Below, piece after piece: positions 1 to 20,906 of a DNA stretch of 26,468 bases (its first letter is position 1; each line of letters opens with the position of its first letter). The DNA lies in IMG/VR virus record IMGVR_UViG_3300021356_000139, positions 1 to 26,468 of that record; one strand, written 5' to 3'. Source of the stretch: a virus. The notes beneath the pieces are model-generated. The model was not told the origin of the DNA and did no database searches. It worked only from the letters and a program-made list of their open reading frames with translations. Position numbers and translations under genes: made by a program.

Positions 1-584
1 ATAAGCGAAAGCCCTGCTGCTAAGTAGGGCATAACCTTGTCGGGTTGTTGTACTAGGCTTTCATAGTCAAGTTCACCGACCATGTTCGCTGCTGCCTGTT
101 TGTAGATATCCATTTTTTCTTTATCGGCTAACCCTTCAAGTAGACTAGCACTTTCAAGGTATGACATAAAAGAATCTTGATTATTCATAGCCCCAGCTAT
201 ACTACCAGAGTTTACCGCTTGGTCGAGGGTTAAGTCATCGTCTTCACCTTTATTGACACCCAAACTTTCGTCTAAGAAACTTTTTATATCTGCCCCTTCT
301 CCTTCACCGCTAGTCATACCGTCTATAATTACTTGAGTAGTAGGGTCAATACCTGTATTACTACCAGTTATACCAGCACCATAACTATTTCTATAGTCAT
401 CAGGTTGCATAACTGATTCAGGCATAAGCATATTCTGCGTTAATAGATTATTAAGAGTATTTCTGTCAAGACCTAGCTGAGAAGATATAGTTTCTATAGG
501 TACGTTTTGGTCAAGCATTGTTTTAGCTTGAGCTAAAAGCCTAGATCTATCTACATTAGCCATTAAGTCTTGTTCATTTATCAT
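1..584 (-). CDS. Virion-module protein of unknown function, C-terminus cut by window edge
   Basis: The frame opens with ATG at 584, overlapping the TAA of the upstream gene by one base (TAATG), and stays open for 194 codons to the left edge, so the C-terminus is missing. The visible protein is acidic and rich in Asn, Gln, Met and Leu. Residues of about 26-48 (containing ETISSQLGLDRNTLNNLL) resemble a helix-turn-helix, but this is too short to call DNA binding. There is no signal peptide or membrane segment. It is the last of three co-directional genes behind the putative promoter at 3192-3237, next to two Gly/Ala-rich virion-module proteins, so an internal virion or tail-associated role is plausible by position only. 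Confidence 0.75.
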   Translation of the reverse strand, partial: MINEQDLMANVDRSRLLAQAKTMLDQNVPIETISSQLGLDRNTLNNLLTQNMLMPESVMQPDDYRNSYGAGITGSNTGIDPTTQVIIDGMTSGEGEGADIKSFLDESLGVNKGEDDDLTLDQAVNSGSIAGAMNNQDSFMSYLESASLLEGLADKEKMDIYKQAAANMVGELDYESLVQQPDKVMPYLAAGLSL

Positions 585-2170
585 TATTTAAATGCTCCAT
601 ATGCTGCTATAGCCGTACCTAACCCTTGCATTAAGGAGTTACTACCACCACTAGTAGAACCTTGTGCTAAAGTAGTGCCACCTAAAGTTGGTGCAAAACT
701 TGCTGCGGTCTGACCTGCTTGTCCTATTATTTGTCCTGGTAAGTTATATTGACCTACAAAGTTTTGATAAGCTAAATCTAATCCAGCTTGATTTTGAGCA
801 CGTTGCATACCGCCTACGTTCATCATATTACCTACATCACCTTGACGTAAAGCCGATAAACCTTGACCTAACCCAGCCATTTGACCACCCACGTTAGAGC
901 CAAACTGACCAGCTTGTAGTCCGCTACTAGCTAAGTTTTGACCTGTACCGCCATATATATTACTTAATCCTGTACCTAAACTACCTAGTCCTCCAGCTGC
1001 AGTACCTATAGTACCAGCTAGGTTTTGTCCTAACCCAGCTATTTGTGCACCCATAGCCCCTTGACGTTGACCTAAATTGGCCATAGCATTAGCTTGATTA
1101 AGTTGTGCACCTTGTTGACCTAAACCTAAAGTACCCATAGCTTGACCACGTTGTATGCCTTGTGCTCCTTCGCCCAATCCTAACTGACCTAACTGACTAC
1201 CGATACCTGCTTGCTGACCTGCTAAATTACCTAATAAACCTGCTTGTTGTGCTTGTCTGGCTTGTTGTGCTTCAAATGCTGCTTGTGCCCTACCCGCTGA
1301 AGACTCATAACCTTGAGACCTTAAACCAGCAGCAGTTTTTAATTGAGCTTCTCTTAATGCTTCTTCTCTTTCTTGTGCACCTAATCTAGCTCTACTACCG
1401 CCGAAAGCACCAGAGCCTATAGCTTGTGCTCTACCCGCTATGTCTGCTTTAGCCCCCTGCTCTTCTAAATCTTGCATAGCTCTACTTACTACTGCGTCTT
1501 CGTAAGGATTCATAAAACTAGAGATACCTCTAGGGTCAAAACCTTGAGTAGCACCAAACCCAGTTTGAGCTGCAGCTCCAATATTACTTAAAGAACCAGA
1601 TATGGCATCTCTTGCTGTACCCAAGCTTGGTCTAGAACCAGCTACTTCACCCAGTGCTCCGCTTAAATCAACATTAGCTCCACCTATCATTTGACCAGCT
1701 CTACCTAAAGTATCTTGACCGCCACGTAACGCTCCTAAACCTTCATATGTTGCGTCTTGTGCTATACCTGGAACTTGCCTTAATAAACCTTGTGCTTCGC
1801 CTATGCCTGCTGCACCTTCAGCAACACCTTGACGCATATAATCCATGCCTTCAGCAGCACTGCTTCTAGCGTCACCATAACCTTGCCTAGCCATACCTGC
1901 TGCTTCATCAAAGTAAGGTTGATATGAACCTACATTCTCAGCAGTCATACGCATAGCCATTTGCTCAGCAGGTGTAAAGTCTGCTATCCTTTGACCTTGA
2001 TACGTATAAGGGTTAGCCCCAGCAACACCTATGCCTTGTAGCTTATTGACTAAGTCTTGATTAAGCATAGGCAGTATGCCAGGGATATTAGCCCCTGGGA
2101 CACCAGCCATAAACTGTCTATAATACTCTGGTGGTAAACTCTCGGTACGTCCTGTTGTTTGTTCTGCCAT
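584..2170 (-). CDS. Ala/Gly/Gln-rich putative virion-internal or tail protein
   Basis: This 528-residue protein is dominated by Ala, Gly and Gln. A conserved-looking N-terminal half includes GQRIADFTPAEQMAMRM near residues 59-75, and a central block FMNPYEDAVVSRAMQDLEEQ is followed by AIGSGAFGGSRARLGAQERE. From memory, this NPY...GAFGGSR...E block recurs in large uncharacterised proteins of marine podoviruses beside tail genes. The C-terminal half is low-complexity GLGQ/NLGQ text that could form long helices. No enzyme motif, signal peptide or clear membrane span is seen. Its start abuts the stop of the 333-residue gene with no spacer. An ejected internal virion protein is the preferred guess, from size, composition and position only. 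Confidence 0.7.
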   Translation of the reverse strand: MAEQTTGRTESLPPEYYRQFMAGVPGANIPGILPMLNQDLVNKLQGIGVAGANPYTYQGQRIADFTPAEQMAMRMTAENVGSYQPYFDEAAGMARQGYGDARSSAAEGMDYMRQGVAEGAAGIGEAQGLLRQVPGIAQDATYEGLGALRGGQDTLGRAGQMIGGANVDLSGALGEVAGSRPSLGTARDAISGSLSNIGAAAQTGFGATQGFDPRGISSFMNPYEDAVVSRAMQDLEEQGAKADIAGRAQAIGSGAFGGSRARLGAQEREEALREAQLKTAAGLRSQGYESSAGRAQAAFEAQQARQAQQAGLLGNLAGQQAGIGSQLGQLGLGEGAQGIQRGQAMGTLGLGQQGAQLNQANAMANLGQRQGAMGAQIAGLGQNLAGTIGTAAGGLGSLGTGLSNIYGGTGQNLASSGLQAGQFGSNVGGQMAGLGQGLSALRQGDVGNMMNVGGMQRAQNQAGLDLAYQNFVGQYNLPGQIIGQAGQTAASFAPTLGGTTLAQGSTSGGSNSLMQGLGTAIAAYGAFK

Positions 2171-3172
2171 TTATGCCCTACCTAAACCCATGCTTTGGGC
2201 TTTGTTTTCGTTCATGTCCATCATAGCGTATAGCTGAGCTATACCTGCGTCATGGTCACCGTTCCCTATTCCTTTTACGGCTTGTTTAGTCATTACAAAC
2301 TCACCGTCTGCTAATAATGCGGGTACTGTATCTTCATCGCCTGAGCCTTCAGGGTCTTCAATATCTCCGCCATTTTCTCTTAAATCTATTTCTGGTAACT
2401 CACCACCGTCTTGTAGTCTAGCTATTTGACCGCCATCTTTTACGTTTACCCTAGCGAACTCAGGGAAAGCTAATTCATACTCATCTTGTTGTCTAAGTAA
2501 TTCAGCTATAGCAGAATTAACTGGATCATAATCATAACTTTGAGCTAAACTAGGCATACTACCCGCTATGCCCGTACTTGAGCCTTGAGTACCATATACA
2601 TCACTCAATTGAGCAGGAGTTAAACCTTGAGTTAAATATCCGCTTTGGTCTATTGGTCCTGGCATAGTGGCTGGTTCTTCATCTCCTCCTAATAGTTTTC
2701 CTTTAGTGAGACTATTAAGTCCGCTCATTCCTATAGCCCCAGCCCCAGCTTTTTGTAAAAAACTTAAATCTTTATAAGCGTCTCCTATACTGGTAAGATT
2801 TTTTAATTTTGCACTTTCAGGTGCTAGTGCGTTAAATGCGTTGGCACCTATGCCTTCAAAAAATCCCCCCAAACCTTGACTACTAACTCCAGGAGTACCA
2901 GCCATAAATTTACCTGTAAAACCTTTACCAGCAGCATCAAAACCGAAACCAGCTCCACCCAACATTTTACCACCAGCCCACACACCAGCCCCAGCTAATG
3001 CTGCTTCTTTTAAATCTTCTCCTTCCGCTAAACCGCCTACACCTCTACCTATGCCCGCACCTAATGCTGGACCAACTCCAGGAATAAATAACCCTGCTAT
3101 TGTAGCGATCTCTTTCGTGTTCTTTTTAACGAACCTCTTTATGCTTTTGAATGCACTTTTTAAACCGCCCAT
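2171..3172 (-). CDS. Gly-rich virion-module protein with C-terminal GG...DGEFVMT motif
   Basis: The protein has 333 residues. The N-terminus (about 1-40) is Lys-rich and then hydrophobic (IATIAGLFIPGVGPALGAG), an amphipathic or membrane-active type of segment. The middle is Gly/Ala-rich. The C-terminus carries DGGQIARLQDGGELPEIDL, then DTVPALLADGEFVMTKQAVKG and LYAMMDMNE. From memory, this GG-repeat plus DGEFVMT-A-V plus LY-MM block is widespread in marine phage proteins of unknown function. It is the first gene after the putative promoter at 3192-3237, with only a weak Shine-Dalgarno (TAGGA). The membrane-active N-terminus and the neighbouring Ala/Gln-rich gene would suit a virion-internal or ejected protein. 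That role is inference. Confidence 0.75.
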   Translation of the reverse strand: MGGLKSAFKSIKRFVKKNTKEIATIAGLFIPGVGPALGAGIGRGVGGLAEGEDLKEAALAGAGVWAGGKMLGGAGFGFDAAGKGFTGKFMAGTPGVSSQGLGGFFEGIGANAFNALAPESAKLKNLTSIGDAYKDLSFLQKAGAGAIGMSGLNSLTKGKLLGGDEEPATMPGPIDQSGYLTQGLTPAQLSDVYGTQGSSTGIAGSMPSLAQSYDYDPVNSAIAELLRQQDEYELAFPEFARVNVKDGGQIARLQDGGELPEIDLRENGGDIEDPEGSGDEDTVPALLADGEFVMTKQAVKGIGNGDHDAGIAQLYAMMDMNENKAQSMGLGRA

Positions 3173-3191
3173 TACACCGTTCCTATGTTCA

Positions 3192-3237
3192 TGTATTTAT
3201 TATATATACAACTTCTTGAACTGTATAGTCTATACAG
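3192..3237 (-). promoter_or_regulatory. Putative sigma70-like promoter with overlapping 17-nt palindrome
   Basis: On the minus strand a perfect TATAAT (3204-3199) is preceded, after exactly 17 bases, by TATACA (3227-3222), four of six matches to TTGACA. The -35 lies inside an uninterrupted palindrome, CTGTATAGTCTATACAG on the plus strand (3221-3237): 8-base arms around one central base. This is the layout of a promoter whose -35 is covered by a dimeric repressor or activator site. It sits in the 76-base gap before the gene at 3172, one of the few real gaps in this gene block. The palindrome could instead be a short RNA hairpin. Confidence 0.5.
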
Positions 3238-3248
3238 AGTTACCATAC

Positions 3249-3590
3249 CTAGTTATTAACCCCTACTTGTATAGATGTATTACCACCCGTTACTACTGTA
3301 ACTCTGCCAACACTAGCTGTAAGTTCATAACCTACGTCAGTAATTCTTTCTCCAATGTCAAGCCATTTGTAGCCAGTCCAGACTTGTAACACACCTACAC
3401 TAGTATTCCATATAAGACTACCAGCGTTAAATTTAAACTTGTCTCGCTCTGTTTGATTGATCTGTCTTGTGTTATCGGGGTCAAACGTACCTAAATTTAA
3501 TTCTAAAACTCTTACTAACCTGTTATAAGTATCAGAATTGACAGTATCCTCTACAGATACAGGAAGTCTAGTAGCTAGTAGCTTACTCAT
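3249..3590 (-). CDS. Small conserved phage structural protein, function unknown
   Basis: This 113-residue protein has an N-terminal helix-prone part (MSKLLATRLPVSVEDTVNSD, then TYNRLVRVLELNLG) and a beta-rich C-terminal half. That half contains AGSLIWNTSVGVLQVWTGYKWLDI, a short Trp-containing hairpin pattern common in tail and fibre proteins that display short beta units. Its start overlaps the end of the tail nozzle-like gene by four bases (ATGA), implying translational coupling. Proteins starting like this are, from memory, common beside that large tail gene in marine podoviruses. It could be a tail-tip or fibre-attachment subunit. No enzymatic motif is visible. Confidence 0.7.
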   Translation of the reverse strand: MSKLLATRLPVSVEDTVNSDTYNRLVRVLELNLGTFDPDNTRQINQTERDKFKFNAGSLIWNTSVGVLQVWTGYKWLDIGERITDVGYELTASVGRVTVVTGGNTSIQVGVNN

Positions 3591-5452
3591 CTTCTACCGT
3601 CGTTTCTTACTTCTAATCTAGTAGCTCCTAATCTCCATCCTGTATCATCATTACCAGAGTCTGTATTACCGTCATAAGATTCAAGTCTTAATACTGCTTG
3701 TCTGGCTCTACTACGTACATGTACTTGTTGGGTTGTACTAGCTACGCTACTTGTACTACTTGTAGTTAATGTATCACCTGGGAAATTTCTAGTTTTTAAA
3801 ACTATGTTTACTTTACCGCTACTACTGTTGTTTAAGAATTTGATGTCAGGGATAACTTTTGATATAAAAGCGAACTGTTCTCCGTCGCCTATGTCAAAGT
3901 CTGAACTTTCTATATACACATTAGTCATAGGCTGACCATCATCATTATAACCGAACTCATGTTCATATAAATAACCATTACTTGTGGCTCTAGGATAATT
4001 TACAGTACCTTCATCTATCCATGCAGTTCTACTTAGTTCACCATAAGTCCAAACATTATCGTTATAATCATAAACTACATATCTATCAATCTCTTCTGAA
4101 CTAGCTGAAGGGTAAAACCAACCTACTTCATCATGATCATTGTTAGTGTATGCAAAAATTTTATAAGCCTGACCTGAATTGATATCGTCAAAAACGTAAC
4201 TCAACACGCTACAAGGTACTTTTCGAACACTACCGTTATACACGTAAAAATTGTCGTAGCCCATCCAGTAAACACCTCCAGGAGAAGTGACAGCCCCGTT
4301 AGGAGATATAAGACCAGTATTGTTATTAATTAAATTAATACCAAAAGTAAACGGTGGTCCAATAAAAGACATACTGTACAAAGCTGTATCAGTCCAAACT
4401 AATGTTTCTTGTCTTGCTTTTACCGAACCAACTATTAAACTACCTTCTGACAATCGTAAACTACCAGCTGTGTTAGTATCTAAAGGTTCAAAATCAGTTA
4501 AGTTTTCTTGGTCGCTAAAAGATATAAGCATAGGGTCGAGTACCCCAGTTCTTGATGCACCTGATATTGGGTCACTACCTAAAATTATAAGATGACGGTC
4601 AGTTTCTGAAACTGTTACACCTAAACATATTGTAGGTACTAGATTAGCCCCAGCTACATCTGTTAACGCTACGGCTCTAGTTTCTACACCACCACTAGTG
4701 TCATGATAATAGATAGCTCCATTACGTACCGCCATAACTAAGTCTTCGCCAAAATGGTCATGTGACCATAGACGTAACTGGTTTGTGTTTGATAACGCAG
4801 TAACTGAGCCCCAAGTACCTGAGTTCCATGCACCAGCACCCCAACCTGTTGATTGTACGTATACGTCTAAACCTACGTTTATCTGGTACACTCCGTCAGT
4901 AGCAGAACCTCCGTTACCAGTATCACTTGAATTAGCTGTTACTGTAGCTCCGCTAGTATCTTTAGCTGTTATCGTGTATGAATTAGTGTTAACTACGGTA
5001 ACTATTTGATATTCTTGATTTAAAACTGTTGCCGTTATATTACCGCCTAAACTGACCGCTTGACTAAACGTAACAAAATCATTTATTACCGCCCCGTGAC
5101 TTGAATCAGTTACGGTAATAGTAGAGCTACCGTCAGTAGCAGAAAAAGTAACGCTATTAGTTGATGTTTTTCGTATTGGGGTGACATCGTTAAAAGTATC
5201 TCCTTCGTTTATGTAATATTTTAAATGAGTACCTAAACCTAAAAATTTACTACCGTTTAAAGCTACCCAAGGGTGTAAAGCACGACAAGTGCCCAAAAAA
5301 CTGTTTTGAGTATCTTTACGCCAACCGCCTATTTTTTCTGGTCTACCAGAATTAAACCTAACTAAGTTAGAATCAAACCACCCACCTTCATTATCGTAAG
5401 CTGTTCCTTCTCGTACTATCCCTGGTTTAAATACAAACTTATTTAACGGCAT
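3587..5452 (-). CDS. Putative tail nozzle/stabilisation protein (P22 gp10 / T7 gp12-like role)
   Basis: The 621-residue protein begins MPLNKFVFKPGIVREGTAYD, followed by NEGGWFDSNLVRF and RPEKIGGW. From memory this opening is typical of a large tail protein of marine podoviruses that resembles packaged-DNA stabilisation or tail-nozzle proteins with a beta-propeller body. Residues of about 105-185 look like an inserted Ig-like or beta domain (HGAVINDFVTF ... NQEYQIVTVVNTNSYTITA), a module often found in phage tail proteins. The rest alternates beta strands with aromatic turns (YWMGYDNFYVYNGSVR, VGWFYPS, YVVYDYNDNVWTYGELSRTAW). It starts 1 base after the endolysin stop region, so late tail genes continue beyond the lysis cassette. 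The specific nozzle role is inferred. Confidence 0.65.
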   Translation of the reverse strand: MPLNKFVFKPGIVREGTAYDNEGGWFDSNLVRFNSGRPEKIGGWRKDTQNSFLGTCRALHPWVALNGSKFLGLGTHLKYYINEGDTFNDVTPIRKTSTNSVTFSATDGSSTITVTDSSHGAVINDFVTFSQAVSLGGNITATVLNQEYQIVTVVNTNSYTITAKDTSGATVTANSSDTGNGGSATDGVYQINVGLDVYVQSTGWGAGAWNSGTWGSVTALSNTNQLRLWSHDHFGEDLVMAVRNGAIYYHDTSGGVETRAVALTDVAGANLVPTICLGVTVSETDRHLIILGSDPISGASRTGVLDPMLISFSDQENLTDFEPLDTNTAGSLRLSEGSLIVGSVKARQETLVWTDTALYSMSFIGPPFTFGINLINNNTGLISPNGAVTSPGGVYWMGYDNFYVYNGSVRKVPCSVLSYVFDDINSGQAYKIFAYTNNDHDEVGWFYPSASSEEIDRYVVYDYNDNVWTYGELSRTAWIDEGTVNYPRATSNGYLYEHEFGYNDDGQPMTNVYIESSDFDIGDGEQFAFISKVIPDIKFLNNSSSGKVNIVLKTRNFPGDTLTTSSTSSVASTTQQVHVRSRARQAVLRLESYDGNTDSGNDDTGWRLGATRLEVRNDGRR

Positions 5453-6273: not shown

Positions 6274-6586
6274 CTTTCGTTCCCTTGTTTATTCTTGGTT
6301 CTATTAGTCCAGGTTTAGCTGAAGCTAATTTAGTCAAGTTGTGTCGTTTAAATATATCGATATAACGATTCATTTCTTTCTGTATTTCTTGACTTTTTAG
6401 TTGTAATTCTTGCAGACCTTCTGTCTGTAGTGCAAAATCATTTTGTAAAGTTTCTATAGCTAGTTTTTGTTCTTTGTCTCTTAGCTCAAAAGCTTGGTTA
6501 AGTGCAGAAAGTTTTGAGTTTTCACTCCACAATAAATAAGTGCTAAGCACTAGTACACCTATTATCCCTATTAACACTTTACTCAT
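6191..6586 (-). CDS. i-spanin (Rz-like inner-membrane protein)
   Basis: This 131-residue protein has one N-terminal membrane anchor (residues 4-20, IGIIGVLVLSTYLLW), then a long charged coiled coil of about residues 22-80 (LSALNQAFELRDKEQKLAIE, LQELQLKSQEIQKEMNRYID) and a polar tail. This is the topology of an inner-membrane spanin whose coiled coil spans the periplasm. Its 3' end overlaps the lipoprotein gene by 83 bases, as in Rz/Rz1 pairs. Its start overlaps the cyclase stop by eight bases (ATGAGTAA), so it is probably translationally coupled to the signalling gene before it. The family call rests on topology and context, not on sequence motifs. Confidence 0.82.
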   Translation of the reverse strand: MSKVLIGIIGVLVLSTYLLWSENSKLSALNQAFELRDKEQKLAIETLQNDFALQTEGLQELQLKSQEIQKEMNRYIDIFKRHNLTKLASAKPGLIEPRINKGTKDVFDSIEEDSRNIDSLDDGLQLQPDTK

Positions 6587-8318
6587 ACGTATATATTTCC
6601 AGTGATTTTGATTTACCTTTTACTTTTATTGGTTTCAATAATTTTAACTTAAATTTAGACTTTTGTTTAGTGTTTAGTCCTATAATTAAATCTTTGCCTA
6701 CTTCTTTAGTTGCTGACTCTAGTCTTGCAGCTGTATTAACAGCGTCACCTATAGCACTATAATCAAACCTAGTATCGCTCCCCATGTTGCCTATCACTGC
6801 TTCTCCAGTATTGATTCCTATACCTATAGCAACTCCTATATCAGCTTTTTTCATATCCTCTATAATTTTTATGGCAGTTTTAATAGCTTTATCTTCATGG
6901 TTTGGTAAATCTATAGGTGCATTAAATATAGCCATCATTGCATCACCTATATATTTATCCACCATTCCTCCGTGCTCTTTTACAGCATTTGATTGTATAG
7001 TCAAAGCTTTATTCATTATTTCTGTAACCTGTTCTGGCTCTAGTTGTTCTGATAAACTTGTGAAACCTCTAACGTCTGTAAACAAAAAAGTACAAACTCT
7101 TTTTTCTCCACCTAATTTTAATAGATTAGGATTATTTTGTAGTAATTTCACTTGTCGTGGATCAAGGTAATGTTCAAACTGTTTTTTAATAAGTAAACGT
7201 AATTTATACTGTTCTCTAAATCTAAGGTAAAAAGCTGTTGCTCCTACTACAAATTGACTTATGAGTGTCCAAGTAACATCTATAAGCATACCTTTACTAA
7301 TTAAATAGTATCCGCCTAAAGCCGTTACAGACGCTGTAAGGACTCCAGAAACTAACCCCCACGTTATACCTAAATAAAATAATAAAAGCCATACTAACGT
7401 TACTGTAGTTATTAGAATTAATATTTCTACGGCTAACGCCCAATCAGGTATATAAGGACTATTTTGTACTAATATACTTTCAGCGAGTGCTGTTTGTATT
7501 TTATGAGGTTCTAATAACCCTACAGGTGTAGCTATTTGCGGCATCACCCCATTAGCTGTTACACCTACGAACACAAACTTACCATTTACATCCATTTCTT
7601 TTAAATCAGTTTGTGGTGTATCTACCCAACTAATCCATTTACGACCTAAACTATCAGTTTTTACTGGAGGTATACCACGTATAGCTATTTCCTGTATACC
7701 GTTTTCGTTTGTAGTAATAATATAAGTTTTTACATCAAATAATGCTTTATATATTTGTGTACCGAAAGAAGCTAACCAACCGTCAGGAGACTTTAATAAG
7801 AGAGGAACTCTCCTTACAAGTTGGTCAACTTCAGTAGGAGCTGTAGCTATTCCTTGTAATACGTTATCATATGTGTCAAAATTTTCTTTGACTCCTTCAG
7901 TAAGTATACCACCAATATCTTCACCTTTTATAACTGTTCCTGTTGTTTTAGGATAGTTACCATTTGGAGTTTCAAACATAGCTATTACACTAGGAGCATA
8001 CTCTAAACTCGCAGCAAACCTAACATCGCCACCTAATCTATCAGGTTGTGGAAAACTTATTACCCAACCAACACCTAAAGCACCTCGACCTAATAATTCA
8101 AGTTGTATATCTGCTAATCTTTCTCTAGGTAAAGGGTAGCCACCCTCACGTTCTACATCTTGTTCAGTGATATTAAGTATAACGAAATTACCACTAGGCT
8201 CAGGTGTTTGTATAAACGTATCAAAAGTTCTAAGTTTTATAATCTCTGTTGGTGTCGATTGAAATATTAACGGTAATGCTAATAATATCAATAAAGGTAA
8301 TAAATATAATTTTTTCAT
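6579..8318 (-). CDS. CHASE2-domain class III adenylate cyclase, membrane-bound
   Basis: The 579-residue protein has an N-terminal membrane segment (about 4-20), an extracytoplasmic CHASE2 sensor (about 25-285, with YPLPRERLADIQLELLGRGA), three membrane spans (about 292-364) and a C-terminal class III nucleotidyl cyclase domain (about 400-579). Catalytic residues look intact: metal-binding Asp415 (FTDVRGFT) and Asp459 (GDAMMAIF), substrate-selecting Lys455 (VDKYIGD), Asn528 and Arg532 (GDAVNTAAR). The second base-selecting position is Ser521 (DYSAIGD) where class IIIb enzymes usually have Thr, so ATP to cAMP is the best prediction. Its start overlaps the FecR-domain gene (ATGA), and its end overlaps the i-spanin gene. 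CHASE2 cyclases next to FecR-type genes are familiar in bacteria; one inside a phage lysis region is odd. The CHASE2 ligand is unknown. Confidence 0.93.
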   Translation of the reverse strand: MKKLYLLPLLILLALPLIFQSTPTEIIKLRTFDTFIQTPEPSGNFVILNITEQDVEREGGYPLPRERLADIQLELLGRGALGVGWVISFPQPDRLGGDVRFAASLEYAPSVIAMFETPNGNYPKTTGTVIKGEDIGGILTEGVKENFDTYDNVLQGIATAPTEVDQLVRRVPLLLKSPDGWLASFGTQIYKALFDVKTYIITTNENGIQEIAIRGIPPVKTDSLGRKWISWVDTPQTDLKEMDVNGKFVFVGVTANGVMPQIATPVGLLEPHKIQTALAESILVQNSPYIPDWALAVEILILITTVTLVWLLLFYLGITWGLVSGVLTASVTALGGYYLISKGMLIDVTWTLISQFVVGATAFYLRFREQYKLRLLIKKQFEHYLDPRQVKLLQNNPNLLKLGGEKRVCTFLFTDVRGFTSLSEQLEPEQVTEIMNKALTIQSNAVKEHGGMVDKYIGDAMMAIFNAPIDLPNHEDKAIKTAIKIIEDMKKADIGVAIGIGINTGEAVIGNMGSDTRFDYSAIGDAVNTAARLESATKEVGKDLIIGLNTKQKSKFKLKLLKPIKVKGKSKSLEIYTYE

Positions 8319-9430
8319 CCGCTACTTTGTCTAATAGTGATAGTAGAATCACCACCACCGTTTATTTTCACTATATTAGAAACTCCGTCTTGTATCAAAA
8401 TTACGGTATAACCGTCACTTGCATTTAAATCTACTTGAACAGATTCACTCACTTGTCTGCGTAAACTTATGGTTTGCCCTGTTACTATTGTAGTTATTTG
8501 TGTTTGAGTATCTTGCCCTATAAGAGTACCTGATACATTTACACGAGTAGCCAATCCAAGTTGGTCTTCTTCCTCTTTTACAGCTAAAGTGTCAAGTACG
8601 TCTAGTAAATCTTCTAAAAAATTTACGTCAAGATAATTTATATCTAGTTCTGTAAACTCTAAGTCACTATCTTCTAAGAAATCTTCGTTTAAGTAATCAA
8701 TATCTAAATCGTTAAAATCTAACAAGTTTACTGTTTTTGTACTTGATGTTTCTTCTTGAGCTAGGGAGTCTTCTTTTGGTGGAGAGACTATCAACATGTT
8801 ATCAATAATGTCTAATGATAAGTCTAAGATTACAGGTTTACTAGGTGGGTTTTCAAACACATTTACTGTTGTAGCTTGATACGGTTTATTTAACAGAACA
8901 CTACCTGTAGCTGTTACTACTTCTATTTCACCGCTAGATAAACCAAAAGCATCTGGTAATAAAATTATCAGACTACGACCTAACTCATCAACGGTAGCTG
9001 TGAAGTCTGTGCCCCTAATGGCTATGTTAGCAGTAGGAGTGCTAAGTTTTATGTTTTGTTTATCTATACGATTTAGATTACCTGTAATAAACCTAGCCGT
9101 ACCTAATGCAAAGTTGAGCGACATTTTAGATTTACTAGGGTCAGGATCATAGATATATTCATCTATTAGAAGTTGAGAATGTTCTGTGAGTTTTACAACC
9201 GATTTATCTAAAAAAGTTATAGCCATACGACCATTAGTTGTTATGGCTTCATCGTTGCTTTGAATAGCAAACTGTAGATTAGCGTCGTAAGGTTTATCTC
9301 TTACTATTTGGGCAGAGCCGTTTAGTTCAGATATATCACCTATATCAGCAGCTTGTGCTTGTGCCTTGGTCGTTTTGAATAACGCAAACAGTACCGTTGT
9401 TACCGTTAGAAATAATCTTAAGCCAGTCAT
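8315..9430 (-). CDS. Secreted FecR-domain protein
   Basis: The 371-residue protein has a Sec signal peptide (about 1-27, hydrophobic run then AQAQA) and a FecR domain at about 28-195. That domain includes ISELNGSAQIVRD, TNGRMAITFLDKSVVKLTEH, SKMSLNFALGTARFITG and IKLSTPTANIAIRGTDFTAT. Residues of about 230-280 form an acidic Leu/Asp-rich stretch with imperfect repeats (LDIDYLNEDFLED, LDINYLDVNFLED), and the C-terminus is beta-rich (GYTVILIQDGVSNIVKING). FecR domains are periplasmic sensor or scaffold modules. There is no sigma-factor partner here. Instead the gene is coupled by ATGA to a CHASE2 cyclase, so it may present a periplasmic signal to that sensor (inference). Its first 86 bases overlap the curlin-like gene in another frame, with no clear Shine-Dalgarno. 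Confidence 0.85.
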   Translation of the reverse strand: MTGLRLFLTVTTVLFALFKTTKAQAQAADIGDISELNGSAQIVRDKPYDANLQFAIQSNDEAITTNGRMAITFLDKSVVKLTEHSQLLIDEYIYDPDPSKSKMSLNFALGTARFITGNLNRIDKQNIKLSTPTANIAIRGTDFTATVDELGRSLIILLPDAFGLSSGEIEVVTATGSVLLNKPYQATTVNVFENPPSKPVILDLSLDIIDNMLIVSPPKEDSLAQEETSSTKTVNLLDFNDLDIDYLNEDFLEDSDLEFTELDINYLDVNFLEDLLDVLDTLAVKEEEDQLGLATRVNVSGTLIGQDTQTQITTIVTGQTISLRRQVSESVQVDLNASDGYTVILIQDGVSNIVKINGGGDSTITIRQSSG

Positions 9431-10049
9431 TATCTTGTGTACTCGATTGTGTAATATTAAACGTTCTAGAATTACCTGTTTGATCTAAATAAAAATAACC
9501 CCCAGCGTAACCAGAGCCTGTAAAGTTTACAGTATTGCTATCACCGTCTACATCTACGTAGTTAGTAGCACCATCATAATTTATATCAAAATCAAAAGTA
9601 TTACCGTCACCGTTGATTATCCAATCTAAATCTAATGTTGCAGCCAGTGCTGTAGTTCCGTGATCTAACGTAAAGGTGTTTGTGCTACCTGTAACGTCTA
9701 CATTATAATTTGAATTATCAATACCGTAGGTATTTGTAGGGTCGCCCTGTATCGTAAAGGTGTTAGTATCCCCATCAAACTCAAAGAAACCTGTTATAGA
9801 ATCTCCTAATATATCTCCTAAGAATTTATTAGTATCTCCTATTTGGTTTATATCTAAAGTCATAGTAATACCGTCTAAATCTAATGCGGTTAAAGAACCA
9901 GCAGAAGAGTTAAGTCCACCAATAATATTACCTGAACCAAGTTGTTCTAAATCAATATTTGCTGTAGCACCTGATTGGTCAACGTATATTTCGTTATCAG
10001 CAGCAAAAATAAATGTTGAGGTTAGTAGTAAACTAATCAATATTTTCAT
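9345..10049 (-). CDS. Secreted curlin-repeat-like protein, candidate amyloid substrate of CsgG
   Basis: This 234-residue protein has a Sec signal (MKILISLLLTSTFIFA, cut near ADNEI) and then only short beta-strand repeats. The recurring pattern is alternating hydrophobics, Gln or Asp, x-Gly-x-x-Asn, and alternating hydrophobics: IYVDQSGATANIDLEQLGSGN, LDINQIGDTNKF, FTIQGDPTNTY, WIINGDGNTFDF, YLDQTGNSRTFNITQSS. This matches the Gln/Asn ladder of CsgA/CsgB curlin repeats (Q-x4-N-x5-Q), although several copies have Asp instead of Gln. It is longer than E. coli CsgA (about 150) and ends with two cysteines (CVIQNDQGTSTSC). It starts 17 bases inside the csgG-like gene behind a strong ribosome site (GGGAGGTG), so it may be made abundantly. 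A soluble beta-solenoid is the alternative. Confidence 0.75.
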   Translation of the reverse strand: MKILISLLLTSTFIFAADNEIYVDQSGATANIDLEQLGSGNIIGGLNSSAGSLTALDLDGITMTLDINQIGDTNKFLGDILGDSITGFFEFDGDTNTFTIQGDPTNTYGIDNSNYNVDVTGSTNTFTLDHGTTALAATLDLDWIINGDGNTFDFDINYDGATNYVDVDGDSNTVNFTGSGYAGGYFYLDQTGNSRTFNITQSSTQDNDWLKIISNGNNGTVCVIQNDQGTSTSC

Positions 10050-10854
10050 CTTTCACCTCCCAGTAACCTTTAGTATACCCTATTTTAACGATTTGCAAAA
10101 CAGCCTCCTCAATGGCTCTTTGTAAAGCCAAAGTTGCTGGTTCATTTTCAGCATCACCTGTTTCTATTTCTACTAATTCTGTTCCTGCTTCTATAAACCT
10201 AAAAACATCTTGTGACCGTCCATAGCTATACAACTGTTTACTTACTAAAACATCTATTAAAACTTCTCCTGTAGCTATAGAAATCATCCTTAGTGCGACT
10301 GTTATATTATCTACTCTGTATTGCGTACTTGTTCCTATGCCTAAATATCTAGCACCTCTACCACCGCTTTTAATATTTGTGTCAAAACCAATAACGGCAC
10401 CTTCCATCAATACACCTGCAAAAAGTAATGGCATTATTGGTTTAGGTCCATCAGATTTTTCGTTTTGTTCTCTAGCAGAACGTATGAGCTGTCTTTCTTT
10501 TGTTAGATTATCAAGACCAACTCTTTCAGCTACTCTGAAAAATCTACCTTCAGCAGTATGTTTTAAGCTTCTAATTAATAAATGGCTTGGTGCTTGTGTA
10601 AGTGCTGTAGAAAATAAAGCAAACTCACTATTGCTTTTACGTTGTCCTGTTTGGTCTGTAAAACTATTAGGATAAACAGCAACCACAATTGGGGCTTTTG
10701 GTTGTGGTACTTGTAGTAATTCTTTTGATTGTATTTCTAAAACATTAGGTAATGTTTTATTTTTTAATAGTGTGTTGTTTACAGATACTAAACTACAACT
10801 AGAAAGCAAAATCGCCAATAGGCAACTGTATCTCGGTAATATTTCCATCAGCAT
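10033..10854 (-). CDS. csgG: CsgG-like curli secretion lipoprotein, outer-membrane pore
   Basis: CsgG forms a nonameric outer-membrane channel that exports curlin subunits. The 273-residue protein matches the E. coli family in length and along its whole sequence: a lipoprotein signal with lipobox LSSC (Cys20), VVAVYPNSFTDQTGQRK (57-73), LDNLTKERQLIRSARE (114-129), FAGVLMEGAVIGFDTNIKSG (145-164) and GARYLGIGTSTQYRVD (167-182), then TGEVL, DVFRF, NEPATLALQRAIE and YWEVKDE. The constriction loop keeps the FSTA phenylalanine (Phe81), but the E. coli Tyr51 and Asn55 positions are not conserved and the loop is about one residue longer, so pore selectivity may differ. It overlaps csgF by 56 bases and the curlin-like gene by 17. 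No csgE is visible. An alternative start lies two codons downstream. Confidence 0.95.
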   Translation of the reverse strand: MLMEILPRYSCLLAILLSSCSLVSVNNTLLKNKTLPNVLEIQSKELLQVPQPKAPIVVAVYPNSFTDQTGQRKSNSEFALFSTALTQAPSHLLIRSLKHTAEGRFFRVAERVGLDNLTKERQLIRSAREQNEKSDGPKPIMPLLFAGVLMEGAVIGFDTNIKSGGRGARYLGIGTSTQYRVDNITVALRMISIATGEVLIDVLVSKQLYSYGRSQDVFRFIEAGTELVEIETGDAENEPATLALQRAIEEAVLQIVKIGYTKGYWEVKDENID

Positions 10855-11341
10855 CAGTTATTTTTAAAGTTATAATATCATTTTCAATACTGTATTCTAT
10901 CGTGTTTCCCTCCAAGCTCAAAACACCTGATGTGCTAGGAGTTTCTCCGAATAAATTTTCTACAAGCTGTCGTGATAATTGTGCATAGATTCTTGACTCT
11001 AAATTGCGTATAAATCTAGCTAGTGTAGTATTTTCTTTATCTCTTTCTATTTGTTCTTGTAAAGCTTTTATTTCTTCTTTAATGCTCATCTTACGGTTAA
11101 ATTCTTGGTTCTCAATTGTTAAATAATGAGAAGAAGTATTTATACCGCTAAAACTAGGGTTTTTAAATTTATGTACTATTTGGTCTGATTGCACGTTTTG
11201 AGCTAAGATGGCTAAAAATAAAATGATACCGATTACAGCTACCCATTCAATAACTTTTTGTTTATCAGCCTCTACTTTCCTACGTTTTAATTCTACGTTA
11301 GAGGGTCTACCTCTTTTTCTTTTAATCTTTCCTTTGGTCAT
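10799..11341 (-). CDS. csgF: CsgF-like curli assembly factor with basic N-terminal extension
   Basis: CsgF inserts its N-terminus into the CsgG pore and helps couple curlin export to nucleation at the cell surface. The family signature is HKFKNPSFSG (58-67), equivalent to FQFRNPNFGG of E. coli, and the C-terminal beta part (FIRNLESRIYAQL, EYSIENDIITLKITDADGN) also follows CsgF. Instead of a short signal peptide there is a highly basic 23-residue leader with an AT-hook-like KRKRGRPS, then a hydrophobic segment at about 31-49, so it may be a signal anchor or a long-n-region signal. A helical insert (MSIKEEIKALQEQIERDKE) separates the two halves. I chose ATG at 11341, with AAAGG nine bases upstream; a TTG at 11359 would add six residues. 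It overlaps the preceding membrane-protein gene. Confidence 0.85.
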   Translation of the reverse strand: MTKGKIKRKRGRPSNVELKRRKVEADKQKVIEWVAVIGIILFLAILAQNVQSDQIVHKFKNPSFSGINTSSHYLTIENQEFNRKMSIKEEIKALQEQIERDKENTTLARFIRNLESRIYAQLSRQLVENLFGETPSTSGVLSLEGNTIEYSIENDIITLKITDADGNITEIQLPIGDFAF

Positions 11342-11672
11342 CTCTATCTGCCTTTGCAAGTTTATCTTGGTTTATTAATTGAGGTACTCCTAATATAGTT
11401 TTTATCATAGTATCTTGTCTTATAATTTCATTATCTAAGCTACGTACTCTATCTATTAAAGCTACTAAAATACCGTGTTGTGAGTCAAGTTTTGTGCCTA
11501 GGCGTTCTTCTATTGCTGCTATCTGTGATTCTACTTTTTCATCAACAGCGTCTAGTTTAGATTCCATACCATCAACAATACGTATAACTAATTTATAAAT
11601 AAACCAACCAAGACCTATTGCTGCTGCTATAGGAAATCCAACTTCTTGGATTACTGTTACTGCAGATTCCAC
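11322..11672 (-). CDS. Membrane-anchored coiled-coil protein, holin candidate
   Basis: The 116-residue protein starts at GTG 11672, overlapping the nuclease stop by one base (TAGTG), with GGGGTGAT as ribosome site. One membrane span is visible at about residues 11-33 (VGFPIAAAIGLGWFIYKLVI). A long heptad-rich coiled coil follows (MESKLDAVDEKVESQIAAIE, then LIDRVRSLDNEIIRQDTMIK), ending in a charged tail. Similar one-span coiled-coil proteins are frequent in the lysis and accessory regions of marine phages. It may be a holin or membrane adaptor; topology alone does not decide. It lies directly before csgF and overlaps it, so it marks the upstream border of the curli and cyclase island. Confidence 0.7.
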   Translation of the reverse strand: MESAVTVIQEVGFPIAAAIGLGWFIYKLVIRIVDGMESKLDAVDEKVESQIAAIEERLGTKLDSQHGILVALIDRVRSLDNEIIRQDTMIKTILGVPQLINQDKLAKADRDDQRKD

Positions 11673-13166: not shown

Positions 13167-16100
13167 TTATTCTCCTTTTAAAATTTGTATTTCGGCTTTT
13201 AATTCATCTACTTGTGATGAAAGTTCCTGTATTGCTTTAGTTAATATAGGAACAAATTTTTCATATTTTATTCCATATAGTTTTTCATCTTCAGATAGAT
13301 TAACAGCTAAATTAGTTTTATCAGCTACGTTATAACCTGCTGCTTGTTCTAATACTTCAACTTCTTGTGCTTTAAAGCCTATATCTAACCAATCTTCTTT
13401 ATGAGTGCCATCATGTGTAATAGTGTCTAAGTCTGTATCTGGGTTTTTATCCCAATCCACATACTTTGACCTTTTATCCCATTTATAAGTATAAGGTTTT
13501 AATTGTTTTACAAAATCTAACCCTATATCTAAATCACTAAAATCTGTTTTATCTCTTTCATCAGAAGCTACAGTTAGGGCTACTTGGCAATGAAAGCTTC
13601 CTATACTACTATCGCCTAAAGCTATAATATTATTACCACCTGTAATTGAACCTCCAGGCTGACCTGATTTACCTGCTCTATATCCAAGACCTATATTATT
13701 TTCTCCAGTCGTAACTTCTGCTAAAGCATTAGAGCCTAACGCAGCATTATTTTGACCATTAGTACAATCTTCAAGAGAGTCTATACCTACAGCAGTATTA
13801 CCTATACCTGTTGTAAGTTTTGTATTTGCACGAATCCCAAGAGCAGTATTATTATTACCAGTAGTACAAGCATCTAAACAAGCCTGTCCTACAGCCACAT
13901 TACCACTACCACTTGTACATTCTACTAAAGCATTTCTACCTATAGCGACATTATTATCACCTGTACAATCCTGTAAAGCTCTATAACCTACCGCAACATT
14001 ATCTTCGCCACCTGTGCCTAATTGCATGGCTTCTCTACCTAAAGCTGTATTACCACTACCAGTAACATTAAGTGCTGCAGCTTCACCCATAGCAGTATTA
14101 CTATGACCAGTTACTACGCTTGTTAAAGCCTTACGCCCAACTGCCGTATTGTTTGAGGCTGTAGTATTAGCTGACAACGCAGAAGTGCCTACGGCTGTAT
14201 TTTCAGCACCTGTTGTATTAGCATCCAGAGACAATGCACCAACTGCTGTATTGTTTGTAGCTGTAGTGTTTGCTGCTAAAGCATTATCACCAACTGCTAC
14301 ATTATTATCTGCTGTCGTATTGGCAAATAGAGTATTCCAACCCACTGCTACATTACTTCCACCTGTAGTATTTGATGATAAAGAAATTCTGCCTACAGCT
14401 ACATTATAACCTCCTGTTGTATTAGCATCTAAGGCATTACCACCTACAGCAGTATTAAATTGCCCTGTAGTATTAACACCCATAGCAAAAACACCAACTG
14501 CCGTATTGTTTCCAGCAGTAGTATTAGCTTCTAATGCTTTCATGCCTAGTGCTGTGTTTGCACCACCAGTCGTATTTGCTTCTAATGCTTCTACACCAAC
14601 TGCGACATTTTCTGTACCTGTAGTATTTCCTCCTAAAGAAGATGTTCCTACAGCAGTATTTTCGCTACCAGTTGTATTAGCATCTAGAGAAGATGCTCCT
14701 ATGGCAGTATTTTTAATAGCTGTCGTATTTGCTTGAAGTGCTGTATGACCAACTGCTACATTAGAATGACCTTCCGTGTTTGCTGCTAAAGAATCTCTAC
14801 CAACTGCGGTGTTATTAGAAGCTGTGGTGTTAGCTTGTAAAGAACCCTGTCCAACAGATGTGTTGTCTGCTCCAGTTGTGTTTGCTGTTAATGCAGCATG
14901 ACCTATTGCTGTGTTATTGTTCGCAGTTGTATTAGCATCTAAAGCGTTACCACCTAAAGCAGTATTTGCTGCACCTGTGGTGTTTGTTAAAAGTGCATCT
15001 TTACCTACTGCTGTATTATTATCTGCGGTGGTATTAGCACCAAGGGCATCGTGTCCAACTGCTACATTATTTTTACCAGTTGTATTAGCATCCATTGCAT
15101 CCATACCAAGGACTGCATTATTACGACCTTCTGTATTATTTCTCATAGAACCACTACCAACAGAAGCGTTTGAATGGCCTGTTGTTGTAGCAGTCATTGA
15201 CGCATTACCAATGGCTGTATTATCGTCTGCTGTGGTTGCAGCATCTAAAGCCAATCTTCCTACTGCTGTATTCTGGGCACCTGTAGTGTTTGCTGCAAGT
15301 GCGTTATAGCCGATACCTGTATTATTAGAAGCTGTAGTGTTTGCTGCTAAAGCAGTTGCTCCAACAGCTACGTTTGTTGTACCTGTAGTATTAGCACTTA
15401 AAGCAGATGTTCCTACCGCTGTATTATTTGAAGCTGTCGTATTAGCATCTAGTGCTTGACCACCAACAGCGGTATTAGAACCACCTGTGGTATTAACCAA
15501 TAAAGCGTTTCTGCCTATGGCTGTGTTAAAAGTTGCTGTAGTATTAGCTCCTAGTGCATCTGTTCCTACAGCTGTGTTATAGCCACCTTCTGTAATTGCA
15601 TCACCTGCACCTTTACCCATTACAGTATTTTCTGTACCTGTAGTAATAGCTAATAAAGCATCAGCACCAACTGCCGTGTTGCTAGTACCAGAAGTAAGAA
15701 ACTTAAATACGCTATCACCTAAACCTGTATTGTTAGTAGCACTTGATAAAGTACCTGTAGTTGTATCTTGTTTAATTAGAATACTATTAACAAAGTTTGT
15801 AGTATCAGCAAGAATACCTACGCCATTAATTGTGCTGTTAAATGTAGCTGCACCTGCATCTGACATATTAAGGGTAAGAGCATTAAAAAATGTACCGCCA
15901 TCATTACCTCGTAATATAAGGTCTTTATCTTGAACAATAGATACTATTCTAAAATCATTACTATTGTTTTGTAGAGTACCGAAATGTGTTCCGTCATCTT
16001 TAAGAAAAATATTTCCACTATCTGCATCAAGAGTTAAATCTGTGCCTACATCTATTGTTAAACTTCCAGCATCAGAAATAGTAGAACCATTAATTGTTAT

Positions 16101-16685
16101 ATCGTCTACTGTAAGTGTTGTAAGAGTTCCAAGACTTGTAATATTAGGTTGTGCTGCTGTAGATAAAGTTCCTGCAATACTGCCTGTAACAGTCAAATCT
16201 CCTCCAACTGAAGCATCATCTGTTACGGTTAAATCGTCTTGTACTTTTAAATCTACTACGCTTAGACTAGCAAAAGCGTCAACTACTGCTGCTCCAGATC
16301 CTGCTCCGTCTGAATAAACTACTTTTACGTCCCCTGGTGGAATAGTTATATTAGCTCCACTACCTTGAGAAATTATTATGTTTTGTGATCCAGATGTTGC
16401 GTTTTCTATAAACCACATTTTGCTAACGGTGTTAGGACCAATGGTTATAGTGCAAGCTGAATCTAAAGTACCTGTATATTTAAGATACAACGACCTTCCA
16501 GGGTCAGTTGCTCCGTCTGCTATAGTGGTTGTATGTGTATCTGCGTTAGTAGTTATAGCTTCTGTGCCATAACTAAATGCTTCTGCTATTAACTCTAAAT
16601 TTGTATTAGTAGTATCACCCCAAGTACCTGATTCATCACCAGTAGCGATTTCTTTTAACCTAAGGTCATTAACATATGTTGCCAT
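13167..16685 (-). CDS. Long trimeric tail fibre with TAVG-AL-ANTTG repeats and S74 self-cleaving chaperone
   Basis: The 1172-residue protein opens with MATYVNDLRLKEIATGDESG, TWGDTTNTNLELIAEAFSYG, a phage-attachment end familiar from marine phages. Residues of about 140-320 are beta-rich shaft. Residues 319-1010 are about 41 tandem 17-residue repeats (NTAVGxxALxANTTGxx), expected to fold as a trimeric left-handed beta-roll like YadA-type adhesin heads. Residues 1041-1172 are a peptidase S74 intramolecular chaperone: SDERDK supplies the Ser1041/Lys1046 dyad, followed by LDFVKQLKPYTYKW, DIGFKAQEVE and a terminal coiled coil (ELSSQVDELKAEIQILKGE). The chaperone trimerises the fibre and cuts itself off before Ser1041. 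This is the likely receptor-binding protein. The start has GGAG seven bases upstream and its own putative promoter. Confidence 0.93.
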   Translation of the reverse strand: MATYVNDLRLKEIATGDESGTWGDTTNTNLELIAEAFSYGTEAITTNADTHTTTIADGATDPGRSLYLKYTGTLDSACTITIGPNTVSKMWFIENATSGSQNIIISQGSGANITIPPGDVKVVYSDGAGSGAAVVDAFASLSVVDLKVQDDLTVTDDASVGGDLTVTGSIAGTLSTAAQPNITSLGTLTTLTVDDITINGSTISDAGSLTIDVGTDLTLDADSGNIFLKDDGTHFGTLQNNSNDFRIVSIVQDKDLILRGNDGGTFFNALTLNMSDAGAATFNSTINGVGILADTTNFVNSILIKQDTTTGTLSSATNNTGLGDSVFKFLTSGTSNTAVGADALLAITTGTENTVMGKGAGDAITEGGYNTAVGTDALGANTTATFNTAIGRNALLVNTTGGSNTAVGGQALDANTTASNNTAVGTSALSANTTGTTNVAVGATALAANTTASNNTGIGYNALAANTTGAQNTAVGRLALDAATTADDNTAIGNASMTATTTGHSNASVGSGSMRNNTEGRNNAVLGMDAMDANTTGKNNVAVGHDALGANTTADNNTAVGKDALLTNTTGAANTALGGNALDANTTANNNTAIGHAALTANTTGADNTSVGQGSLQANTTASNNTAVGRDSLAANTEGHSNVAVGHTALQANTTAIKNTAIGASSLDANTTGSENTAVGTSSLGGNTTGTENVAVGVEALEANTTGGANTALGMKALEANTTAGNNTAVGVFAMGVNTTGQFNTAVGGNALDANTTGGYNVAVGRISLSSNTTGGSNVAVGWNTLFANTTADNNVAVGDNALAANTTATNNTAVGALSLDANTTGAENTAVGTSALSANTTASNNTAVGRKALTSVVTGHSNTAMGEAAALNVTGSGNTALGREAMQLGTGGEDNVAVGYRALQDCTGDNNVAIGRNALVECTSGSGNVAVGQACLDACTTGNNNTALGIRANTKLTTGIGNTAVGIDSLEDCTNGQNNAALGSNALAEVTTGENNIGLGYRAGKSGQPGGSITGGNNIIALGDSSIGSFHCQVALTVASDERDKTDFSDLDIGLDFVKQLKPYTYKWDKRSKYVDWDKNPDTDLDTITHDGTHKEDWLDIGFKAQEVEVLEQAAGYNVADKTNLAVNLSEDEKLYGIKYEKFVPILTKAIQELSSQVDELKAEIQILKGE
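13655..15731 (-). repeat. About 41 tandem 51-bp units encoding 17-residue fibre repeats
   Basis: These tandem repeats lie inside the tail fibre gene. Nearly every unit is 51 bases (17 residues) with the consensus N-T-A-V-G-x-x-A-L-x-A-N-T-T-[G/A]-x-x; two units near the C-terminal end are 16 residues. The DNA copies are diverged, so protein spacing is conserved more strongly than DNA. Units often alternate ANTTG with ANTTA, giving a partial 34-residue super-period. Four of five successive units near the end carry Cys at the position otherwise taken by Asn. Confidence 0.92.
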
Positions 16686-20265: not shown

Positions 20266-20772
20266 TTAAGCGTCAGCAAATGGAGTTACTATAGTACCTG
20301 AGCCTAGGATGATTCCTTCTACAGCATACTTAGCACTACCGATTGCAGTTACTTTAACGATACTACCTGCTAAACCACCTTTAGTTGTTCCATTCATAGT
20401 GATAACATCATTAGATGCACCAGATATAAATGTTTTACCAGTAGAGTCATCTTTACCTGTGTATACCCCGCCTACGAACTTATCTGTTCCATCAGTTAAG
20501 ATGTCCATATCTGTGGCTGCTGTTTCTACTACAAAGAAAAAAGAAGCACCTAAATTATTAGTTTGGTTAGGGTCGTCATCACTGCCTGGGGCTGTTGCCA
20601 CTATACTTGGTAAAGTGAATTTACCATCTGCATCGTTACAAGTTAAAATCTTACCAGCGTGTGAATCTACGCTTAGTGTTGTGTCTGCAGTTAAACTAAC
20701 CACGTTAGCGTTACCTGCTGAAATAAATCCTGCTAATGACTTAACTGGACCTGAGAATGTCGATTTTGCCAT
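20266..20772 (-). CDS. Beta-rich virion surface/decoration-type protein
   Basis: This 168-residue protein begins MAKSTFSGPVKSLAGFISAG, then a beta-rich Thr/Gly/Asp-rich body (KILTCNDADGKFTLPSIVAT, GASFFFVVETAATDMDILTD, FVGGVYTG, SNDVITMNGTTKGGLAGSIV). No enzyme motif or signal is seen. The opening resembles virion proteins I remember next to the capsid genes of marine phages. It is the first gene after the capsid terminator and has a very strong ribosome site (AGGAGG, seven bases from ATG), part of which is enclosed in a perfect 7-bp hairpin. This implies high but possibly controlled expression. Confidence 0.72.
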   Translation of the reverse strand: MAKSTFSGPVKSLAGFISAGNANVVSLTADTTLSVDSHAGKILTCNDADGKFTLPSIVATAPGSDDDPNQTNNLGASFFFVVETAATDMDILTDGTDKFVGGVYTGKDDSTGKTFISGASNDVITMNGTTKGGLAGSIVKVTAIGSAKYAVEGIILGSGTIVTPFADA

Positions 20773-20791: not shown

Positions 20792-20793
20792 AA

Positions 20794-20835
20794 GTTCTAC
20801 CGTCTTGGCTTGTCTGCTAGGTCAGTCTGTAGAAC
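20794..20835 (-). other. Leader inverted repeat between terminator and next gene
   Basis: GTTCTAC (20794-20800) and GTAGAAC (20829-20835) are perfect 7-base inverted arms with 28 bases between them. They lie in the 150-base gap between the capsid stop and the next gene. Together with the ribosome-site hairpin they suggest a structured leader or an RNA-processing site. No convincing -10/-35 pair was found in this gap, so readthrough or processing may feed the genes downstream. Confidence 0.35.
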
Positions 20836-20874
20836 AAGTTAATAAACCCTAGAACTAAATGATATACCTTATTT

Positions 20875-20906
20875 TAGAAAAAAGAAAGGGAGCCGAAGCT
20901 CCCTTA
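20875..20906 (-). terminator. Rho-independent terminator after the capsid gene
   Basis: The minus-strand RNA reads AAGGGAGC-UUCG-GCUCCCUU followed by UCUUUUUUCU. The 8-bp stem with an extra-stable UUCG loop and a U-rich tail is a textbook intrinsic terminator, 18 bases after the major capsid stop. It would cut transcription so that capsid genes are over-expressed relative to the connector and tail genes. A small attcg/cgaat hairpin (20910-20924) lies between it and the stop codon. Confidence 0.88.

Follow-up and report, generated by a model that had tools for sequence, protein, structure and literature searches.

A probable sigma70-type internal promoter before the ejection-protein genes of a marine podovirus, and the palindrome that overlaps it

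Between two late genes of a marine podovirus lies a short gap in which a promoter-like pair of hexamers is overlaid, at its -35 box, by a perfect palindrome. The arrangement raises the question of what the site is for, namely whether it is a promoter for the genes behind it, an operator at which a regulator binds, or the trace of an RNA hairpin. The question has wider relevance, as very little has been described of late transcription in these abundant, uncultured marine podoviruses.

The promoter letters and their place in the late gene block

The window, meaning the whole stretch of DNA that was analysed, is one entire virus record of 26,468 bases, and nearly all of its genes are read from the minus strand. 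Following transcription, portal-side genes give way to the capsid gene (20924-21832), tail genes and the fibre gene (13167-16685), and then by a curli/T8SS-like island, lysis genes, a nozzle-like gene, gene A, a 76-nt gap, gene B and two more genes; where no family is cited, 'portal-side', 'tail' and 'nozzle' are what we take these genes to be from position or recall. A preliminary description of this DNA had remarked on a real gap at this point, which is the 76 nt that separate genes A and B, both on the minus strand, and its placing of the site behind the island, lysis and nozzle genes is borne out by the gene order, with the CHASE2-cyclase gene upstream. The features around the gap are the following.

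3587-5452: nozzle-like gene, with a match to phrog_3287
3249-3590, minus strand: gene A, the last before the promoter, 113 aa, no family match
3221-3237: 17-nt palindrome CTGTATAG-A-CTATACAG; minus-strand reading CTGTATAGACTATACAG, 3237-3221
3227-3222, minus strand: -35 box TATACA, read from the sequence; TATAC(A/G) is kept in relatives
3198-3211, minus strand: 14-mer TTGTATATATAATA, invariant in relatives
3204-3199, minus strand: -10 box TATAAT, inside the 14-mer
3192, minus strand: predicted transcription start (+1), the seventh base behind TATAAT
3181-3184, minus strand: AGGA, the likely ribosome binding site of gene B
2171-3172, minus strand: gene B, the first behind the promoter, 333 aa
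584-2170, minus strand: second gene behind the promoter, with a weak match to the DNA ejection protein family phrog_4287 (E 6.8e-5)
3-584, minus strand: third gene behind the promoter, running off the window, no family match

Read on the minus strand, the gap thus consists of the palindrome, nine bases, the 14-mer and a short leader with AGGA that leads into gene B. On re-reading, the letters and coordinates first reported for TATAAT, the 17-base spacer and TATACA, with the -35 box inside the palindrome, proved correct. By sigma70 criteria TATAAT is a perfect -10 element, the 17 nt between the two hexamers fall inside the range of 16-18 nt; TATACA matches the TTGACA consensus at only 4/6 positions. 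A consensus match alone proves nothing, because shuffled sequence gives as many sites: a scan for promoter-like consensus sites returned 57 in 20 kb, eight of them with at least 10/12 matches, as against 60.4 +/- 7.1 in shuffles. The 14-mer is unique within the window with up to 2 mismatches allowed. A DNA-level search of the promoter region against phage records gave no match, and an Rfam search of the site gave nothing of note.

The proteins on either side have recognizable relatives among phage isolates, the nozzle-like protein in HTVC023P and HTVC027P (32%) and the C-terminal part of gene B in the 'tail tape measure protein' of DSL-LC04. The fibre gene (minus strand) encodes a protein of 1,172 aa in which 17-residue repeats (51-nt spacing) form a long array and which ends in a Peptidase_S74 chaperone domain. 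An ARAGORN call of tRNA-Gly on the plus strand (330-425, 96 bases) lies within the opposite-strand gene 3-584 and is probably spurious.

The curli/T8SS-like island (6579-11359, minus strand) contains CsgF, CsgG, FecR and CHASE2-cyclase by Pfam; one of its genes (9345-10049) has no Pfam match and carries repeats that look CsgA-like. All promoter-bearing records that reach far enough upstream of gene A hold the island, that is, the window and 10 others (G001, G003, G005-G008, G013, G015, G016 and G019). CsgG matches are found in G030, G031, G038 and G039 as well, and in the two of these that were inspected, G031 and G038, the 14-mer was not found, so the island as the cause of the promoter was rejected. 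A CsgG match is absent in G014, which begins at the lysozyme gene, and in the short records G017 and G018.

Other features of the late block lie behind the capsid gene. A strong intrinsic terminator, AAGGGAGC-TTCG-GCTCCCTT-TCTTTTTT (20886-20905, minus strand), stands directly behind it and is also present in G001 and G005. Between the capsid gene and the gene at 20266-20772 lies a candidate structured RNA (20792-20838, minus strand) with a putative stem of ~9 pairs around the loop CTGACCTAGCAGACAAGCC, which would be the most surprising thing met besides the promoter. The loop, whose invariance is fixed by the search itself, occurs in at least 120 viral stretches, and among the matches listed a capsid match lies upstream of it in 88/96 distinct rows. 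Among the matches listed, 553/603 pair cells are standard (0.92) in 67 distinct rows, as compared to 0.33-0.46 in slid versions, and the stem shows many two-sided changes across rows, i.e. it covaries strongly. The candidate is present within 260 nt in 4/38 genome-contig or isolate loci with a capsid match. Single-sequence folding of the window's copy is not unusual (z -0.5 and -0.7), and a second hairpin predicted in the window would cover GGAGG before the next gene. Rfam returned no match at gathering score, with weak ones below it, and a search of the literature for an RNA of this kind behind the capsid gene found nothing.

Conservation of the promoter and of the palindrome

Relatives of the locus were fetched by protein similarity to gene B (33 loci) and gene A (76 loci), not by motif. 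The 14-mer is exact in 44/44 locus entries with gene B directly behind gene A, a count that includes the window and in which some contigs appear twice, having been fetched by both scans; these entries hold 18 distinct gaps. TATAC(A/G) stands at a fixed distance from the 14-mer in 18/18 distinct rows, the spacer is 17 nt in all 18, and TATAAT is invariant throughout. Among 22 aligned rows, 20/20 promoter columns (CTATAC and the 14-mer) are invariant versus 6/134 other columns, a contrast (Fisher 4e-20) that ignores the relatedness of the rows and their alignment on the 14-mer; because these rows were anchored on the 14-mer, the 44/44 is the unbiased statement. Among relatives that carry the 14-mer in the gap, the identity of gene B itself is only 49-94%. 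The promoter letters are kept across relatives, and the promoter is therefore under selection. The constraint includes the spacer stretch TTGTATA directly before TATAAT, whose invariance exceeds what an ordinary spacer would require.

The site is also specific to its place. Thirteen records, 9.9 to 52 kb long, contain the 14-mer once each with at most 1 mismatch allowed, and a reversed control gave none. A scan of the viral collection for TATAC-N11-14-mer yielded 44 stretches; gene B follows the motif in 40, and the remaining four (L140, L142, L145 and L158) look like chance in AT-rich DNA. For 18 more distant relatives of gene B, the upstream sequence lacks the 14-mer, because there other genes separate A and B.

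The palindrome follows a different pattern. It has 8-bp arms and one central base, is centred at about -37, and includes TATACA in its right arm; it had earlier been given in its plus-strand form. It is slightly out of the ordinary: counting perfect inverted repeats with arms of 8 or more and a loop no longer than 1, there are 4 in the window versus a mean of 1.2 in 30 shuffles, and for the four distinct rows with the palindrome the local p values are 0.002-0.009 (CTATACA fixed, 1,500 shuffles each). Over the 18 distinct rows, identity is 0.58 in the left arm, 0.65 in the variable spacer, 0.70 in the flank, 0.95 in the right arm and 1.00 in the 14-mer. Four rows, which all belong to the closest relatives of the window, pair perfectly; one row pairs 7/8, and the other 13 reach at most 5/8. 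In L141 the right arm, the spacer and the 14-mer are identical to the window's, and the left arm pairs merely 5/8. Across these rows, hexamers, spacing and place are fixed, and the rest of the gap varies, the left half of the palindrome with it. The site exceeds chance, then, because the promoter letters, not the palindrome, are conserved in relatives.

Two checks proposed in the preliminary description, for the palindrome in related phages and for further copies of it, can be answered accordingly from the same data. It is largely not kept, with promoter letters unchanged where pairing is lost, and the promoter site occurs once per record; no second copy of the palindrome was found within the window with up to 3 mismatches. 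The letters CTGTATAGNCTATACAG occur in 11 viral stretches; in 7 they precede gene B, and the settings of the other 4 are unrelated. In one unrelated phage contig (L120:7950-7966), ACTGTATAGGCTATACAGT forms the centre of a longer inverted repeat, seemingly in a gene gap, and this is possibly a real operator there. Other inverted repeats lie over the same box, with 9-bp arms around 11 bases in L007 (p 0.003) and as CTACTAT-AC-ATAGTAG in L020 (p 0.023), and rows without a notable inverted repeat are L004 (p 0.71), L005 (0.73) and L050 (0.93), all of these p values being uncorrected and the rows related to one another.

These observations bear on the idea that a dimeric protein of phage or host binds the palindrome and either represses or assists the promoter, which would put the ejection genes under separate control. 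The perfect arms over the -35 box are locally improbable, as the p values above indicate, and there is a precedent by analogy in the Pm promoter of phage Mu, where inverted repeats near -35 bind an activator (PMC4390567). The left arm, however, is the least conserved stretch of the gap, pairing is lost in L141 despite its having the right arm and spacer of the window, and the site is single in the window, with 4/11 exact viral matches in unrelated settings. Known regulators fit no better. The E. coli-type LexA site is CTGT-N8-ACAG, which has 0 matches in the window, and the palindrome has CTGT-N9-ACAG, a spacing of 9 that is off by one. The CtrA site is TTAA-N7-TTAA, whose sole match in the window is at 440-454, away from the promoter. 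Doubt had already been voiced about a link to a CRP-like protein, and rightly, since TGTGA-N6-TCACA has no match within 2 mismatches at 3192-3237. An operator of this kind is therefore very unlikely, and as a general operator the palindrome is not supported by the rows compared. Of the earlier proposal that the virion-internal protein genes at 1-3172 may be switched separately, the part that survives is that a conserved promoter of their own would drive these ejection genes; a dimeric regulator acting through the palindrome, which is perfect in 4/18 rows, does not. In the closest relatives of the window, the letters to the left of the conserved -35 box would mirror that box by coincidence and so make up the palindrome, which may modulate the promoter there, outside what appears to be the conserved design. 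As a regulator site it is worth pursuing only once binding has been seen.

Inverted repeats can also act as RNA, and another explanation holds that those seen here form a hairpin in mRNA reading through from A to B, with a role in processing or stability, the promoter letters being partly a by-product. The sister group typified by L007 has a strong hairpin, ATGAGCTGT...ACAGCTCAT (z -5.3), whose stem is kept through G-U pairs in the variant L004 (z -3.4), and CTACTAT-AC-ATAGTAG in another group points the same way. The window's own gap sequence, on the other hand, folds no better than shuffles (z -0.39). Among the other five types tested, one sequence each, four have z between -0.04 and +0.82, and L050 (z -3.4) forms a different hairpin, so that folding is unusually good in 3/8 sequences overall. 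The hairpins of the different groups are not homologous, and the invariant part is the 14-mer, not a stem. An intrinsic terminator at the site was rejected: a scan of the minus strand over 1.6-6.5 kb found no terminator-like site, that is, no GC-rich stem with a T run, and no T run, or U-tract in the RNA, follows the palindrome. No single conserved hairpin or operator is seen across the rows compared, and the chance that an RNA hairpin explains the site seems slight indeed.

Reading of the promoter and translation of gene B

The explanation preferred here, and one that we hold with considerable confidence, is a sigma70-type internal promoter lying among the late (particle) genes of a marine podovirus, which would give the ejection genes a transcript of their own. 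Most likely, host RNA polymerase with its housekeeping sigma factor would bind TATACA-17-TATAAT and start at about 3192 on the minus strand, as predicted, and the ejection-protein genes from 3172 downwards would thereby gain transcript beyond read-through from the upstream structural genes. Use by a polymerase, the sigma factor, the exact start and the purpose, be it dose or timing of the ejection proteins, are points that we infer. A second sigma70-like promoter, TTAACT-17-TATAAT (16734-16706, minus strand), lies before the tail-fibre gene, with both hexamers exact in G001 and G007 and likewise in G005. A second conserved promoter of the same build suggests that internal promoters belong to the way in which the late genes of these phages are read.

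The same letters would also be conserved if they were the target of a phage-encoded late sigma factor or single-subunit RNA polymerase in place of host polymerase. Conservation does extend beyond the hexamers to TTGTATA, and the inverted repeat TATACA-N11-TGTATA is exact in 17/18 rows. There is one site per record, however, unlike phage-wide late promoters, and a search of 4 long, possibly incomplete records for Sigma70_r2 gave 0/4, with a lone Sigma70_r4 match that is under its cut-off and lies in a relative lacking the promoter. PF00940 (phage RNA polymerase) was likewise found in 0/4 records, a result that says little because its control was equally silent. A phage-encoded factor of either type is thus highly improbable. 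TTGTATA mirrors TATACA, and therefore a regulator of another kind may be conceivable. From comparison of sequences, the verdict is that the promoter appears real, well conserved and ordinary, and that the palindrome is not its conserved part.

If host polymerase does start at the predicted position, the leader that results is a very short one. Position 3192 is the first base of an ATG with which a frame of 6 codons, MNIGTV, begins; the frame ends in TAATG, which overlaps the gene B start. Of 12 distinct leader types, 10 have an ATG at precisely this distance, six bases behind TATAAT and at the expected +1. The short frame that begins there is 6 codons long and closes with TAATG in 6 types, and in 3 types its length is 4 to 10 codons. 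In the L004 type it is the ATG of gene B itself that coincides with the expected +1, and no Shine-Dalgarno-like sequence precedes it, so that the mRNA would be leaderless there, an arrangement that makes sense if the promoter is used. TA-like signals ~10 bases upstream of a start codon are read likewise in a survey of leaderless genes (PMC3160421). It is possible, though we consider it rather doubtful, that the ejection genes are generally expressed from a (nearly) leaderless mRNA, and that a regulator at TATACA-N11-TGTATA adds to this; were the leaderless reading true, the amount of ejection proteins made could be set by translating the mini-frame. The leaderless variants thus predict the mode of ejection-protein translation, and an invariant promoter before the ejection genes offers a precise and cheap target for start-site mapping.

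Relation to isolates and to known phage promoters

Related promoters appear beyond the group that shares the 14-mer. A more distant group has TATACA-17-TATTAT (L077) or TATACA-17-TAAACT (L073 and L076) behind gene A, with the palindrome absent. Isolate counterparts share the C-terminal part of gene B, and the gap before the counterpart holds a sigma70-like TTGATA-17-TATTAT in HTVC023P, a sigma70-like TAGACA-18-CATAAT in DSL-LC04 and a weak site, 9/12 with a poor -10 (TAAAGT), in HTVC027P; no sigma70-like site was found in this gap of CRP-902. The open-access literature searched on promoters of this phage group yielded no paper on the present site. For HTVC027P, expression data from infection are described at gene level (PMC12753301).

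A T8SS island with FecR and a cyclase is known from HTVC023P-type pelagiphages (PMC9599517), and the accessible text describes the same kind of CsgF/CsgG/FecR/CHASE2-cyclase cluster as in the window; the word 'promoter' does not occur in that text. When the capsid protein was used to look for the host of the window's phage among genome contigs, 48 loci at 33-80% identity came up, with labels too mixed to point to any one host, and the 14-mer and matches to genes A and B were absent from these 48 loci.

For pelagiphage Skadi-1, predicted sigma70 promoters and Pribnow boxes are given and a phage RNA polymerase is absent, according to the passages available (PMC10504331). The present site is likewise a predicted sigma70 promoter. 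The promoters of Skadi-1 lie near genes for DNA replication and manipulation, whereas the present site lies before ejection genes, and it was tested against relatives, while those passages contain no conservation analysis (PMC10504331).

The Pm promoter of phage Mu with its activator Mor resembles the present site in having inverted repeats near the -35 of a phage promoter read by sigma70; the Mor sites have their centre at -43.5 and take the place of the -35 element (PMC4390567). The present palindrome, in contrast, lies nearer the start, contains a -35-like box and is not conserved. With the sigma70-type internal late promoters of phages that rely on host RNA polymerase the site shares two hexamers, a 17-nt spacer, a perfect TATAAT, a short leader with AGGA and a place before a functional set of genes, and it differs from them in its -35 box, TATACA and not TTGACA, and in the invariant TTGTATA next to TATAAT.
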